NCBI GenBank assembly: GCA_022841905.1
Contig: JALHQO010000018.1
Coordinates: 1 to 36,915 of the forward strand
Length of the DNA stretch: 36,915 bases
Reading direction: 5' to 3'
DNA from: Hyphomonadaceae bacterium
GTDB lineage: Bacteria > Pseudomonadota > Alphaproteobacteria > Caulobacterales > Aquidulcibacteraceae
Part shown: positions 1,860 to 31,532 of the stretch, in pieces
Layout: every line of letters begins with the position of its first letter
How positions within the stretch are numbered: position 1 is the stretch's first letter
Program-made: the position numbers and the translations under genes
The notes under the pieces: model-generated
The model's database searches: none
Told to the model about the DNA's origin: nothing
What the model saw: the letters and a program-made list of their open reading frames with translations, nothing else

Positions 1860-2027
1860 TTAGCCGAATGCGCCAAAGGCCATCGCCAGCGAGAGCGAGC
1901 AGGCGCCGACCCAGGTCGCCACCATTAGAACCGCCGTCCAGAGTATGGGCGTGGGCTGTGCGTCCTTAGCAACGCGGGGCGTGAGGAAACCAAACTCATC
2001 GCGGCGGCCAGTTGAGATGTCTGTCAT
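1860..2027 (-). CDS. 55-residue membrane protein, paralogue A
   Basis: The product is 55 residues, with a polar N-terminal motif GRRDEFGFLTPR (residues 8-19) followed by one hydrophobic helix (about 28-53) that contains TWVGACSLSLA-like sequence ending in FGAFG. GGAGAG precedes the ATG at good distance. It is clearly paralogous to the 57-residue gene at 31215-31388, which has the identical RRDEFGFLTPR block and W-V-x-ACSL in the helix, and to the damaged copy at 29165-29323. The two intact copies also share their leader and promoter region. I infer an inner-membrane protein with the conserved motif in the cytoplasm. Function is unknown and I do not recognise a named family. Confidence 0.75.
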   Translation of the reverse strand: MTDISTGRRDEFGFLTPRVAKDAQPTPILWTAVLMVATWVGACSLSLAMAFGAFG

Positions 2028-2042
2028 GACGGCTCTCCAAAA

Positions 2043-2125
2043 GGCGGGCGACTCCCACGGGCGGCGGAGGAGTCGCCCCCTAAGGCGAGGCTGCAAGCTT
2101 CTTCGGGGGAGGAAAAGCAGCCTGT
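2043..2125 (-). promoter_or_regulatory. structured C-rich 5' leader of paralogue A
   Basis: The minus-strand leader can form two hairpins. P1 pairs GGCTGC (2122-2117) with GCAGCC (2094-2089) around a 22-base loop that exposes TCCTCCCCC. P2 pairs GGGCGACTCC (2078-2069) with GGAGTCGCCC (2055-2046), ten base pairs, and its 5' arm continues into CTCCTCC, which could instead pair with the Shine-Dalgarno GGAGAG. The same two hairpins occur at 31405-31485 in front of paralogue B, where one stem pair changes from G-C to G-U. Conservation of both stems while the loop and linker drift supports an RNA-level function. The switch mechanism is an inference. Confidence 0.6.
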
Positions 2126-2156
2126 TAACCTTCTGAGGCGCCGGGCTTTCCCTGTC

Positions 2157-2172
2157 GGTGCGGCATCGAACC
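2157..2172 (-). promoter_or_regulatory. palindromic operator candidate, site A
   Basis: Read on the minus strand, GGTTCGATGCCGCACC fits GTRCG-N4-CGYAC with one mismatch in the left half. It lies about 35 bases upstream of hairpin P1 of the leader, exactly as the matching site does before paralogue B. A 5-4-5 palindrome near -40 is the geometry of class II Crp/Fnr activator sites. Confidence 0.45.
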
Positions 2173-27707: not shown

Positions 27708-27731
27708 TCTGGCTTTAGCCTCGCCAAGAAG

Positions 27732-27761
27732 AGCGGCTCTCCCGGAGGAGGAAGAGCCGCT
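27732..27761 (+). terminator. hairpin after the 79-residue gene
   Basis: AGCGGCTCT pairs with AGAGCCGCT (9 bp) around a 12-base loop CCCGGAGGAGGA. It begins 25 bases after the stop at 27707. The T-tract is poor, so termination may be weak, and the loop itself looks like a Shine-Dalgarno run. Confidence 0.5.
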
Positions 27762-27860
27762 TGCAGATGGCCAACGCGGGGAAACATCTCATCGGCGCTG
27801 CGCAGGCTATCTGGAACAGTTCGCTGGGCCTGTCCGCCATCGTGCAGTGAGAGTGGTCGG

Positions 27861-27880
27861 AATGTGCGATACCGAACATT
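27861..27880 (+). promoter_or_regulatory. palindromic operator candidate, site upstream of RHH gene
   Basis: AATGTGCGATACCGAACATT contains GTGCG-N4-CGAAC, one mismatch from GTRCG-N4-CGYAC, with AATGT/ACATT as outer arms. It shares fourteen consecutive bases with the site at 30787. It ends 36 bases before the ATG of the ribbon-helix-helix gene. Confidence 0.5.
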
Positions 27881-29164: not shown

Positions 29165-29323
29165 TCAGCCGAACGAGCCAAAGCTAATGGCCAACGAGAG
29201 CGAACAAGCGGCGAGCCAAGTCACCACCAAAGCTATCGCCAACCCGATTGCGGGTAATGGCTTTGGCGGCTTGGCGCCGCGGGGCCTCAAGAAGCCTACG
29301 TCGCCACGACGAGGGTTCGCGAT
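29165..29323 (-). pseudogene. damaged paralogue C of the 55-residue membrane protein
   Basis: The minus strand encodes NPRRGDVGFLRPRGAKPPKP followed by a hydrophobic helix with VVTWLAACSLSLAISFGSFG and a stop at 29165. This matches paralogues A and B along the whole chain (RRxxxGFLxPR, TW-x-x-ACSL). No ATG or GTG start exists upstream in frame before a stop near 29352; only a TTG inside GFL (29290) or an ATC (29323) could serve. It also lacks the conserved leader and palindromic site of A and B, so I regard it as a decayed copy. Translation from a rare start cannot be excluded. Confidence 0.6.
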
Positions 29324-29917: not shown

Positions 29918-30673
29918 CTAGCCCAAGTCCGGTCGATTTTTGACGGGCGTCAGAGCCTTCGGGTAGACCCCGAACAGAGCGCGATATTCCTCGGCGACGG
30001 CTTCGTAGCATTCGCAAGCGGCGTTCTCGAGACCTACGCGATCAAGAATGGTGATATGTCCGTGCTGGTAGCGAATAAAGCCCGCCCGTTGCAGCGTTCC
30101 GGCCGCGATGCTGACGGTTGACCGCCTGACACCCAGCATTGTCGCGATCATGTCTTGGGTCAGGGAAAGTTCTGCAACCCTGCTTCGATCGTGCGCGGCC
30201 AAGAGCCAACGCGCCAGCCTTTGTCCAAGTTCATGATGGGCGTTACAGGCCGCGGTTTGCGCAACCTGAATGTGGAACGCGTGCGTGTAGCGCAGCAGCA
30301 AATCGCGCAAATGGGGCGCGCGCGCGATGGCGTCCTTGAGCGCGGCGGTTGTCACGCGATAGGCGCTCCCGGCTCGCTGGCACATGGTCTCGCAATAAGA
30401 CGTCTCGGCGCCAAGGATCACTGAAACGCCAATCGCGCCCTCGGCCCCAATCAAGCCAATTTCGAGCGGCTGACCGTCTGACAGTAGAGCGAGCGCCGAA
30501 ATAAACCCCCGCTCGACAAAGTAGACGTAAGAAATTGGTTCGCCGGCGCTATGCAGTCGCTCTCCCAGCGCGAGTTCAACGCGCGATAAATGCGCCGCGA
30601 GGAGTGCGAACTCAGTGGCCGGCAGAGCTGCGAGTACTCGATTTCTGATCGAAGCTTGAACAAGTCGTGACAC
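29918..30673 (-). CDS. Crp/Fnr-family transcriptional regulator
   Basis: The 251-residue regulator has an N-terminal cyclic-nucleotide-binding-type beta roll (about 15-125, LGERLHSAGEPISYVYFVER, then GAEGAIGVSVILGA), a long dimer helix and a C-terminal HTH_Crp domain (about 150-225, SLTQDMIATMLGVRRSTVSI). No FNR-type Fe-S cysteine set is present, and the cAMP-pocket RxS motif is not obvious, so the ligand is unknown. In the recognition helix the Glu/Ser/Arg contacts used by FNR and CRP are replaced (RRSTVSIAAG), so a different half-site is expected. GTG 30673 has GGAAAA upstream; GTG 30700 is an alternative. The palindrome at 30788 may be its own operator. Confidence 0.88.
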   Translation of the reverse strand: MSRLVQASIRNRVLAALPATEFALLAAHLSRVELALGERLHSAGEPISYVYFVERGFISALALLSDGQPLEIGLIGAEGAIGVSVILGAETSYCETMCQRAGSAYRVTTAALKDAIARAPHLRDLLLRYTHAFHIQVAQTAACNAHHELGQRLARWLLAAHDRSRVAELSLTQDMIATMLGVRRSTVSIAAGTLQRAGFIRYQHGHITILDRVGLENAACECYEAVAEEYRALFGVYPKALTPVKNRPDLG

Positions 30674-30700
30674 GCGGATTTTCCAACGACGCGGGAGCAC

Positions 30701-31046
30701 GCAGGTGTCTCAGTCAGCGCCACGTCAAACCGGAGACAGCGAATGTCGCCACTTTAGCACGCCCCGCTCCAGGCGGCCACAACATCAATGTGCGATACCG
30801 TACATAATGGTTCCCGCGGCGTGCGCTTAGCCGCGTAGCGCCGCCCGAACTTTCTGCGCCAGATCCCAGTCAGAAGTTTGGCGTGCCTAAGATAGACGCG
30901 ACGGCGGTACCCGGGCGGCGACGACGTCGGTTTACAGACAACAAACGCGCTGGCCGCAAGCAATATGTTCGGCTGTCGACTTACGCTATCGGTTCAGCTC
31001 GATCGCGCGGGGATCATTCCACCAGCACGACCGCGATCAGAGTGAT
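30701..31046. other. intergenic stretch upstream of the Crp/Fnr gene
   Basis: Apart from the palindromic site at 30788-30805 I see nothing I can name here. The site lies about 115 bases before the regulator start. Confidence 0.45.
30788..30805 (-). promoter_or_regulatory. palindromic operator candidate upstream of Crp/Fnr gene
   Basis: ATGTGCGATACCGTACAT contains the full palindrome GTGCG-N4-CGTAC with extended arms ATGT/ACAT. It is the most symmetrical of the four sites in this window and lies upstream of the only Crp/Fnr regulator visible here. Confidence 0.5.
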
Positions 31047-31187
31047 TTATCGCGGACGCGAACACTGAGATTGCAATAGGCTGATCAGCCGTTCGGCCTC
31101 CTTCTCCCTCGCGAAGAACGTGCGCGAGCGGAGTGAGTTCCAGGCGAAAATTACGACCCGCCTAGCGAACGGGCCGTTTTGAAGCAT
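31047..31187 (-). CDS. possible 46-residue basic protein downstream of paralogue B
   Basis: A frame of 46 residues starts MLQNGPFARRVVIFAWNSLR, continues SRTFFAREKEAERLISLLQS and stops at 31047. It begins 28 bases after the stop of paralogue B on the same strand, so it could be co-transcribed. It is strongly basic and amphipathic with no full membrane span. No Shine-Dalgarno is visible; translation would have to rely on coupling. A GGAAC-N16-CGTT match at 31117-31141 falls inside it. Confidence 0.35.
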   Translation of the reverse strand: MLQNGPFARRVVIFAWNSLRSRTFFAREKEAERLISLLQSQCSRPR

Positions 31188-31214
31188 TGGTCGTTGAAGG
31201 CCGTTCCAACGCTC

Positions 31215-31388
31215 TTAACTCACCGAGCCAAGACTGATCGCAAGGGCGAGCGAACACGCGCTGACCCAAGTCACCGCCAGCCCTACCGCCAGCCAAATCA
31301 CGCGCGTTGGTTTCCGCAGCTTAGCAATGCGAGGCGTCAGAAAGCCAAATTCATCGCGTCGCCCGAAAGCGCTTGTAGCGTTTGTCAT
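31215..31388 (-). CDS. 57-residue membrane protein, paralogue B
   Basis: The product is 57 residues: a polar N-terminus with FGRRDEFGFLTPR (residues 8-20), a basic linker (IAKLRKPTRV) and one membrane helix (about 30-55) with VTWVSACSLALA. It shares the whole motif block and helix pattern with paralogue A (1860-2027). TAGGAGA precedes the ATG. The ~125-bp leader and promoter region is also shared with A, which is 29 kb away, so both copies should answer to the same signal. Function unknown; a small regulatory or stress membrane protein is the natural guess. Confidence 0.75.
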   Translation of the reverse strand: MTNATSAFGRRDEFGFLTPRIAKLRKPTRVIWLAVGLAVTWVSACSLALAISLGSVS

Positions 31389-31404
31389 AGGATGGATCTC
31401 CTAA

Positions 31405-31485
31405 GGCGGACGACTCCCACGGGCGGCGGAGGAGTCGCCCCCTTTGGCGAGGCTGCGTGGTCGTCGGGGGAGGAAAGCAGCCTGT
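31405..31485 (-). promoter_or_regulatory. structured C-rich 5' leader of paralogue B
   Basis: The minus-strand leader repeats the two hairpins seen before paralogue A. P1 pairs GGCTGC (31482-31477) with GCAGCC (31456-31451) around a loop exposing TCCTCCCCC. P2 pairs GGGCGACTCC with GGAGTCGTCC (31440-31408), where one G-C pair of copy A becomes G-U. The Shine-Dalgarno TAGGAGA follows P2 closely. Homology to the region of A extends through 31528, past the palindromic site. Confidence 0.6.
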
Positions 31486-31516
31486 TAACCTTTTGAGCCG
31501 CTGGGCATTTGAGGTC

Positions 31517-31532
31517 GGTACGGCATCGCACT
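31517..31532 (-). promoter_or_regulatory. palindromic operator candidate, site B
   Basis: Read on the minus strand, AGTGCGATGCCGTACC contains GTGCG-N4-CGTAC, a full match. It lies about 35 bases upstream of hairpin P1, the same distance as in copy A, which would place it near -40. Confidence 0.5.

Follow-up and report, generated by a model that had tools for sequence, protein, structure and literature searches.

Two small membrane-protein genes are preceded by homologous noncoding stretches

The window, that is, the whole stretch of DNA analysed here (36,915 nucleotides from a Hyphomonadaceae bacterium), carries on its minus strand two small open reading frames of 55 and 57 amino acids, both located where the initial annotation had placed them, and a related sequence to which we refer as paralogue C.

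1860..2027, minus strand: small ORF A, 55 amino acids, one predicted transmembrane (TM) segment, motif ATWVGAC, Kyte-Doolittle value 1.93
31215..31388, minus strand: small ORF B, 57 amino acids, motif VTWVSAC, Kyte-Doolittle value 2.12
29168..29323, minus strand: paralogue C, sharing 52% identity with A; no usual start codon recognised ahead of its conserved part

Protein A has no match in Pfam, NCBIfam or PHROG. Paralogue C is probably degenerate, and blastn finds no leader in front of it. The motif GRRDEFGFLTPR, which had been proposed for the protein family, is present in A and B and is local to them, paralogue C having a diverged form of it; what is common to the proteins of other species is instead a hydrophobic segment with W..[AS][CW]. 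A further remnant, a C-terminal fragment of the small protein, lies on contig 3 (G000:C3:323883-323942, L004 1501-1560), and together with the start-less paralogue C it suggests birth and decay of the small-protein gene within one genome. By eye, the GC-rich terminator-like hairpins of the GCGGCCCGC type behind B (31146-31213, minus strand) and A (1737-1788) look alike, and they also resemble one that follows the contig-3 remnant.

Upstream of A and B lie the stretches 2043-2168 and 31405-31528 (126 and 124 bases), which we located as reported and whose homology was confirmed by blastn: the upstream regions are identical at 121 of 144 positions (84%, E 1e-37), and the homology breaks off sharply 5' of the conserved block. 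The noncoding conservation is as strong as had been claimed, with 84% identity of the leaders against 51% at the third codon positions of both genes. Between CTCA and the ATG, 99 of 115 positions agree when gaps are scored as differences, as compared to 28 of 55 third codon positions (Fisher p 3e-6) and 12 of 22 fourfold sites (p 0.002). A segment of 26 nt within leader A (window 2071-2096, minus strand) matches the antisense of 23S rRNA at 24 of 26 positions in at least 12 relatives (L007-L018); leader B fits it less well, and the likeness is probably due to chance in GC-rich DNA.

Both stretches are predicted to fold into two hairpins with conserved stems

2041..2123, minus strand: C-rich two-hairpin RNA A, predicted +1 at 2123 (first base of P1); match to covariance model R2 (see below) at 2041-2124, 23.1 bits, E 0.0017
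2088..2123, minus strand: P1 of A, AGGCTGC (2123-2117), loop TTTTCCTCCCCCGAAGAAGCTT, GCAGCCT (2094-2088)
2043..2080, minus strand: P2 of A, GGGGGCGACTCC, loop TCCGCCGCCCGTG, GGAGTCGCCCGCC; aligns with the terminator-like hairpin of other copies
31403..31483, minus strand: C-rich two-hairpin RNA B, predicted +1 at 31483; R2 match of 27.9 bits, E 1.5e-4
31450..31483, minus strand: P1 of B, AGGCTGC, loop TTTCCTCCCCCGACGACCAC, GCAGCCT
31405..31442, minus strand: P2 of B, from RNAfold and comparison with A

RNAfold forms both of the proposed hairpins, P1 and P2, in A as well as in B. Their stem bases are indeed kept between the two copies: the arms of P1 are identical at 14 of 14 positions and those of P2 at 24 of 25, the single change turning a G-C pair into G-U. 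The loops had been described as drifting at their edges, and this applies to the P1 loop (16 of 22 identical), whose first half (CCTCCCCCGA) is kept while the remainder drifts, but not to the P2 loop, which is unchanged throughout (13 of 13). The P1 loops are C-rich (e.g. UCCCCCCGAC; in A and B UUUCCUCCCCC), and folding predictions for A and B pair three of the eight bases of CCTCCCCC and about half of the P2 loop within the loop. Judged by folding energy, A does not stand out from its shuffles (z -1.12; 28 of 200 do as well) and B does so modestly (z -2.48; 2 of 200), thus the structure of A and B rests on comparison.

A Crp/Fnr-type operator predicts that the RNA starts at P1

2157..2172, minus strand: Crp/Fnr-type operator of A, GGTTCGATGCCGCACC, centre 41.5 nt upstream of 2123
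2130..2135, minus strand: putative -10 element of A (CAGAAG), at -12 to -7
31517..31532, minus strand: Crp/Fnr-type operator of B, AGTGCGATGCCGTACC, centre 41.5 nt upstream of 31483
31490..31495, minus strand: putative -10 element of B (CAAAAG)
29918..30700, minus strand: Crp/Fnr-family regulator gene (cNMP_binding, HTH_Crp_2), beside B; homologues lie near other RNA copies
30789..30804, minus strand: operator upstream of the Crp/Fnr gene, TGTACGGTATCGCACA, from the palindrome scan

Operator A agrees with 11 of the 12 fixed positions of KGTRCG-N4-CGYACM and matches KGTNCGNNNNCGNACM exactly; operator B likewise agrees with 11 of 12 positions and has one mismatch to KGTNCGNNNNCGNACM. In both copies CARAAG lies at -12 to -7 relative to the first base of P1. 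A palindrome centred about 41.5 nt before the start is the geometry of class II Crp/Fnr promoters. As the operator centre lies 41.5 nt before P1, the RNA should start at P1, and with such a start the upstream third of the reported leader would be promoter. Hence, of the two stretches described as leaders, the P1/P2 part retains this description, while 2124-2168 and 31484-31528 are most likely promoter and operator DNA. When P1 is taken as the start, the palindrome near -41.5 expected of a Crp/Fnr class II activated RNA is in place, and in all 20 copies of the family presented below the operator centre lies 39.5-43.5 nt before P1, with 9-12 of the 12 positions each; several copies have a better palindrome further upstream than the operator counted. 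A simple scan of either strand at the leaders, limited to sigma-70 promoters and classic terminators, found none.

The upstream DNA of a related genome (G001) holds CGATGGCGTACCGAC-N18-CAAAAG, the same block as in A and B, and a search for this block in 398 genomes of the order, with at most one mismatch allowed, found it at these three loci only. We also noted a 13-codon ATG-to-stop frame upstream of P1, with its position kept in A (2125-2166), B (31485-31526; minus strand) and G001 (L093, ~1503-1544), the respective sequences being MPHRQGKPGASEG, MPYRPQMPSGSKG and MAYRPERPRATKA. Seven codons differ between A and B, all nonsynonymously, and comparison with G001 gives 2 synonymous changes and 9 (A) or 7 (B) nonsynonymous ones. 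A conserved peptide was therefore rejected, since the changes are predominantly nonsynonymous and the frame also lies upstream of the predicted start.

The Crp/Fnr gene at 29918-30700 has matches at E<=1e-20 in 10 of 30 genomes of the genus, its own genome included. In the loci of the best 11 of 32 listed Crp/Fnr matches (40,274 bases), KGTNCGNNNNCGNACM occurs 17 times as compared to 0.3 in shuffles, these palindromes being partly the operators of the RNAs themselves. It is found at least once in each of these best 11 loci, and 8 times in 320,633 bases of other loci. Genome-wide, the loose palindrome pattern is not enriched (32 sites versus 35 for the reversed control); the operator signal lies in the placement of the palindromes and not in their genome-wide number. 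As for the contig, it looks rich in Crp/Fnr-type sites, with 20 occurrences of KGTNCGNNNNCGNACM at up to one mismatch versus 7.1 expected and none of 100 shuffles as high. Judging from operator position and gene neighbourhood, the neighbouring Crp/Fnr-type regulator probably switches on the RNAs in several related bacteria, and the product of 29918-30700 is the likely activator of those described here.

A and B appear to be two members of a genus-level RNA family

Protein A was found in only 1 of 200 relatives, namely its own genome, and long matches to the leader DNA in these searches of 200 relatives were likewise confined to the own genome among the matches listed, along with many short ones. 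A three-row protein profile gave nothing that was confirmed in genome_contigs or IMG/VR, two exact leader patterns had no matches, and a weak match to a plasmid protein (45% of the query, E 0.3) was disregarded. A covariance model built from A and B only (R1) missed the family in the 29 other genomes of the genus, its best other match having E 0.17. The path to the family led from a weak match of the three-row profile in G001 (E 0.015) to the promoter of this match, then to the Crp neighbourhood and finally to the operator. Loci beside Crp/Fnr genes in other species proved to hold an operator, a hairpin with a C-rich loop at or near the predicted +1, a GC-rich hairpin and often a U-run. A strict scan for hairpins at +1 over 73 site-directions (some sites were included twice) flagged only four, A, B, G001C2 and an inverted repeat in G024 that we judged unrelated, because loop length was limited in it; a wider scan found more.

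Covariance model R2 was built from three copies of other species (G008, G024 and G027), without A or B. As these seeds had been picked for an operator and a C-rich stretch resembling A and B, the independence of R2 from A and B concerns sequence and not choice, and the E-values of these covariance models are rough. In an unfiltered search of both strands of the window, the best three R2 matches were a third copy, D, then B and then A; the model aligns to B by way of P2 and the loop and places the P1 arms off register.

27726..27799, minus strand: third window copy D, best R2 match in the window (34.7 bits, E 5e-6), no small TM ORF behind it
27831..27846, minus strand: operator of copy D, TGCACGATGGCGGACA, 10 of 12 positions, centre 39.5 nt upstream of P1

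The P2 hairpin of D is terminator-like, with TTCCTCCTCC at its tip and 5 T in the next 9 bases, and a better palindrome lies further up at 27863-27878.

Over 61 genomes, R2 gave 14 matches at E<=5e-4, every one of them within the genus. Of these, 13 (10 of the 11 non-seed matches) have an operator of at least 9 of 12 positions whose centre precedes P1 by 39.5-42.5 nt, and the chance rate of such a placement is 1.5% of 20,000 random positions; G023:C1:1279640 is a strong match (E 3.9e-5) without an operator. In the next eight rows (E 0.0027-0.02) an operator is present at G000:C2 and B only, the weaker rows of this search having been inspected in part. A is missing from the 61-genome search, which was run with stricter filters than that of the window. 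A model of 16 copies, A and B included (R3), adds G000:C7, G001:C33, G019:C15 and G027:1455852, with operators at 40.5-43.5 nt. The count thereby comes to 20 copies with an operator, spread over 10 of the 30 genomes of the genus; the own genome accounts for five (A, B, D, C2 and C7). For 12 of the 20 copies a Crp/Fnr match is no more than 3.5 kb away, several of these 12 having been discovered by looking there. Seven matches were left out for having no operator (G003, G004:C64, G000:C4, G018, G023:103184, G015 and G023:1279640). G001C2 (L093) has an operator, followed by a 5-bp hairpin whose loop contains CTCC (as found in 1.4% of dinucleotide-matched random sequences), but was excluded because neither R2 nor R3 reported it. 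Outside the genus R3 matched 23 of 368 genomes at E<=0.05; a correctly placed operator (at least 9 of 12) was seen at none of the 15 of these 23 loci inspected, and several of the matches resemble 3'-UTR terminators by eye. On the basis of these comparisons, we consider A and B to be two members of an RNA family of the genus and not private to this genome.

Two other C-rich structures were seen on the way. In five genomes of another genus (g29; L202, L203, L204, L206 and L212, ~1501-1577), a C-rich hairpin with a terminator and no operator seems to lie directly behind a gene, and it is perhaps a 3'-UTR counterpart of the same architecture. At G019:C2:123239-123319 (L037 1501-1581), three successive hairpins with C-rich loops followed by a U-run can be discerned by eye, making this a separate candidate C-rich sRNA of the genus.

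Paired positions change together while the C-run is mostly kept

A covariance search for further copies with compensatory changes had been suggested as a check, and it yielded both. When 16 copies are aligned to the model, 94.9% of cells are paired, as compared to 40-56% (at most 55.9%) for slid structures, and two-sided changes occur in 15 of 20 pairs (7 of 7 in P1, 8 of 13 in P2), a count reached by none of 500 shuffles; this alignment is one fitted to the structure. RNAalifold, applied to a MAFFT alignment of the 20 copies that was not structure-fitted, recovered P2 with double changes in 9 of 13 pairs and did not recover P1, whose arms look mis-registered in that alignment. A run of at least four C within the first 45 nt, that is, at the predicted 5' end, is present in 16 of 20 copies, and 4 of 20 have none in the P1 region.

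One could suppose that such hairpins are passive, P1 being a 5' stabilising hairpin and P2 a terminator or its relic, with loops of minor importance and no regulatory pairing. P1 does lie at the predicted 5' end, and P2 with its U-run resembles an ordinary intrinsic terminator in several copies. This supposition is nevertheless difficult to reconcile with a C-run that is kept in the P1 region (in the 16 copies just mentioned) although the stems turn over with compensation, or with a P2 loop identical at 13 of 13 positions in A and B when third codon positions are near 50%. Moreover, a terminated RNA of 73-90 nt that stands behind its own operator with no ORF has no gene to stabilise. A purely passive role thus seems quite improbable to us.

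The RNA occurs with and without a small ORF

An intact one-helix ORF of 33-57 amino acids follows 7 of the 20 copies (A, B, G024, G027b, G004, G008:C19 and G001:C33). These ORFs share the motif [AGVL][TLF]W[LVG][AGVS][AS][CW] plus a hydrophobic stretch, and their starts lie 9-19 nt from where the model match ends and about 15-30 nt from P2. Only 1 of 4000 random windows has a motif-bearing ORF, the motif having been derived from the seven proteins themselves. Apparently disrupted versions of the ORF are seen at G000:C2 and G000:C7, which are counted among the 20, and at the uncounted G001C2. By eye, no small ORF follows P2 in 11 of the 20 copies; at G014 an ORF with WLVC begins later, 93 nt further on, and was not counted.

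The two groups differ in what follows P2: the next 9 bases hold 2-6 T (median 3) in ORF-bearing copies versus 2-7 T (median 6) in ORF-less ones, with a one-sided p of 0.009 for a contrast that was noticed before being tested. At least 5 T are present in 9 of the 11 ORF-less copies and in 10 of 20 overall. The exceptions are G024, with an ORF and 6 T, and G001:C90, without an ORF and with 2 T.

These observations bear on whether the RNA acts in cis, as a leader or attenuator in which P1 and P2 control only the downstream ORF, P2 being a conditional terminator or a translation block. In this scenario the C-rich loops would contact the ORF's own ribosome site, a ligand or a protein. The short distance between P2 and the seven ORF starts would be in line with it, as would the Shine-Dalgarno sequence, most of which is base-paired in the folding predictions for both genes, and the available text of PMC12218461 describes an attenuating leader of a DUF1127 mRNA in Sinorhizobium. 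However, the Shine-Dalgarno sequence is paired with the coding region in A and with a local hairpin in B, so its sequestration is not conserved, and it shares just about four complementary bases with the P1 loop. Of the 20 copies, 11 keep the same RNA without such an ORF. Because 9 of these 11 also carry at least 5 T after P2, a cis-acting switch is not favoured, and we regard it as unlikely. The earlier proposal of a regulatory RNA therefore holds in its architecture, that of a C-rich RNA associated with small membrane proteins, and not in the idea of a cis-acting switch.

The small one-helix proteins, the structured 5' UTR, and the duplicated and decaying copies in one genome might also bring to mind a type I toxin-antitoxin-like system, in which a small hydrophobic toxin with a structured leader is silenced by an antisense RNA. 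On the other hand, there is no Pfam, NCBIfam or PHROGs family match at the limits used, the simple scan for sigma-70 promoters (and for no other type) found no promoter-like site on either strand, and the RNA is present without the ORF in 11 of 20 copies. This makes such a system very improbable here.

The RNAs resemble known C-rich RNAs of alphaproteobacteria but differ from CcsR, ar14 and alphaR8

An Rfam scan of the window found no family at its gathering score. In a permissive scan of short stretches against 4227 families, CcsR1 was the best match of A (21.1 bits, E 0.0026), with ar14 in second place (16.2 bits, E 0.3). For B, CcsR1 had the lowest E (15.2 bits, E 0.14), a microRNA model had more bits (17.0, E 0.69), and ar14 reached 13.9 bits (12.9-13.9 across scans; E 0.97). 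When longer stretches were scanned, ar14 still appeared but CcsR1 dropped out, presumably because of the filters. Among relatives, CcsR1 matched 34 of 61 genomes at 17.6-29 bits, none of the 61 over the cut-off, and also 3 of 14 control genomes; this filtered search did not match the own genome, and several of its matches seem by eye to sit in coding DNA. G024, a clear standalone-type copy, matched neither CcsR1 nor ar14 at E<=5. We consider the CcsR1 and ar14 matches suggestive, not a sign of membership.

A close parallel can be drawn with CcsR1-4, the cuckoo RNAs of the CIN1 locus in Rhodobacter and other alphaproteobacteria, where a C-rich two-hairpin RNA also shares its transcript with a small-protein gene. 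The two-hairpin topology of CcsR (RF02791) is found here as well, as model positions 1-83 of 83 align in A and B, at low score: 21.1 bits (A) and 15.2 bits (B) against a gathering score of 65.3. The CcsR loop motif CCUCCUCCC occurs as an exact 9-mer in none of the 20 copies. In contrast to CcsR, which is derived from a 3' UTR (PMC8625941, in its available text), the RNA lies 5' of the ORF here; proteins A and B have no Pfam match, and so are not DUF1127 proteins like the one linked to CcsR; and a Crp/Fnr-type operator takes the place of the RpoHI/RpoHII promoter. With ar14/NfeR1 (RF02344) these RNAs have in common anti-Shine-Dalgarno-like C-rich loops on hairpins. The scores of 16.2 (A) and 13.9 (B) bits fall short of its gathering score of 58.8, and whereas ar14 has three hairpins, each with the ultraconserved CCUCCUCCC (PMC10746234, as far as its accessible part goes), there are two here, with a looser C-run and no exact motif.

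GsrN, which acts in the general stress response of Caulobacteraceae, has a C-rich 5' loop according to the accessible part of PMC5869019, and a C-rich loop near the predicted 5' end is seen in 16 of our 20 copies. Compared by description, GsrN differs in its dependence on sigma-T/EcfG and in having homologues near core stress genes (sigT/nepR/phyR), as opposed to the Crp/Fnr-type operator found here. SisA-D of Caulobacter (alphaR8) have the core UUUCCUCCCU, which is single-stranded and follows a weak hairpin in the available account (PMC12559287); A, B and G000:C2 carry the similar UUUCCUCCC, but inside the P1 loop, and 17 of 20 copies lack it. UpsM of Rhodobacter, a 5'-UTR-derived sRNA that arises by partial termination and RNase E cleavage (PMC8625941, same portion), offers a model of a leader that yields an sRNA, likened here by description only, its gene cluster and partner being different ones.

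The initial annotation stated that no system of this kind had been described. This was too strong, given that CcsR RNAs linked with CcaF1 and the CIN1 locus (PMC10253847) and GsrN in Caulobacter are on record in the parts of these sources at hand. Among the titles and abstract openings listed in our literature searches, which mostly exclude subscription journals, there was no C-rich sRNA under Crp/Fnr control with a link to a protein of this type.

A probable Crp/Fnr-controlled sRNA with an optional coding tail

Comparison of the copies shows an architecture of operator, P1 with a C-rich loop, P2 and an optional ORF. The explanation that we find best, and hold to be rather probable, is a family of Crp/Fnr-controlled, C-rich base-pairing sRNAs, of which A and B would be sRNA/mRNA hybrids. 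In this model, the neighbouring Crp/Fnr regulator would activate the promoter from a class II position, and the RNA would act in trans through base-pairing between the C-rich loop and the G-rich ribosome-binding regions found in target mRNAs, a mode of pairing modelled on CcsR, ar14 and GsrN. At A, B and the five other ORF-bearing loci, transcription through the mostly weak P2 terminator would also give an mRNA for the small protein. These loci may be dual sRNA/mRNA genes with two products, a longer RNA that is coding and, through partial termination or through processing, a short one made up of P1 and P2; their architecture is compatible with a dual-function sRNA.

A further idea, which we put forward tentatively and with less confidence than the sRNA family itself, is that the genus possesses one module in two forms: a C-rich sRNA that ends at its terminator, and a version with a weak terminator that is read through and so serves as the leader of a small membrane protein. 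If this is true, an sRNA would repeatedly gain or lose a coding tail, and sRNA and membrane peptide would belong to one regulon. Because coding and noncoding copies coexist within one genus, the origin of a dual-function sRNA could be traced copy by copy, as weakening versus gain of a terminator. The regulon would be a compact one, with one regulator, one operator, an RNA of about 80 nt and an optional membrane protein of 33-57 amino acids, and it would extend the C-rich, anti-Shine-Dalgarno sRNAs of alphaproteobacteria and put such RNAs under Crp/Fnr control.
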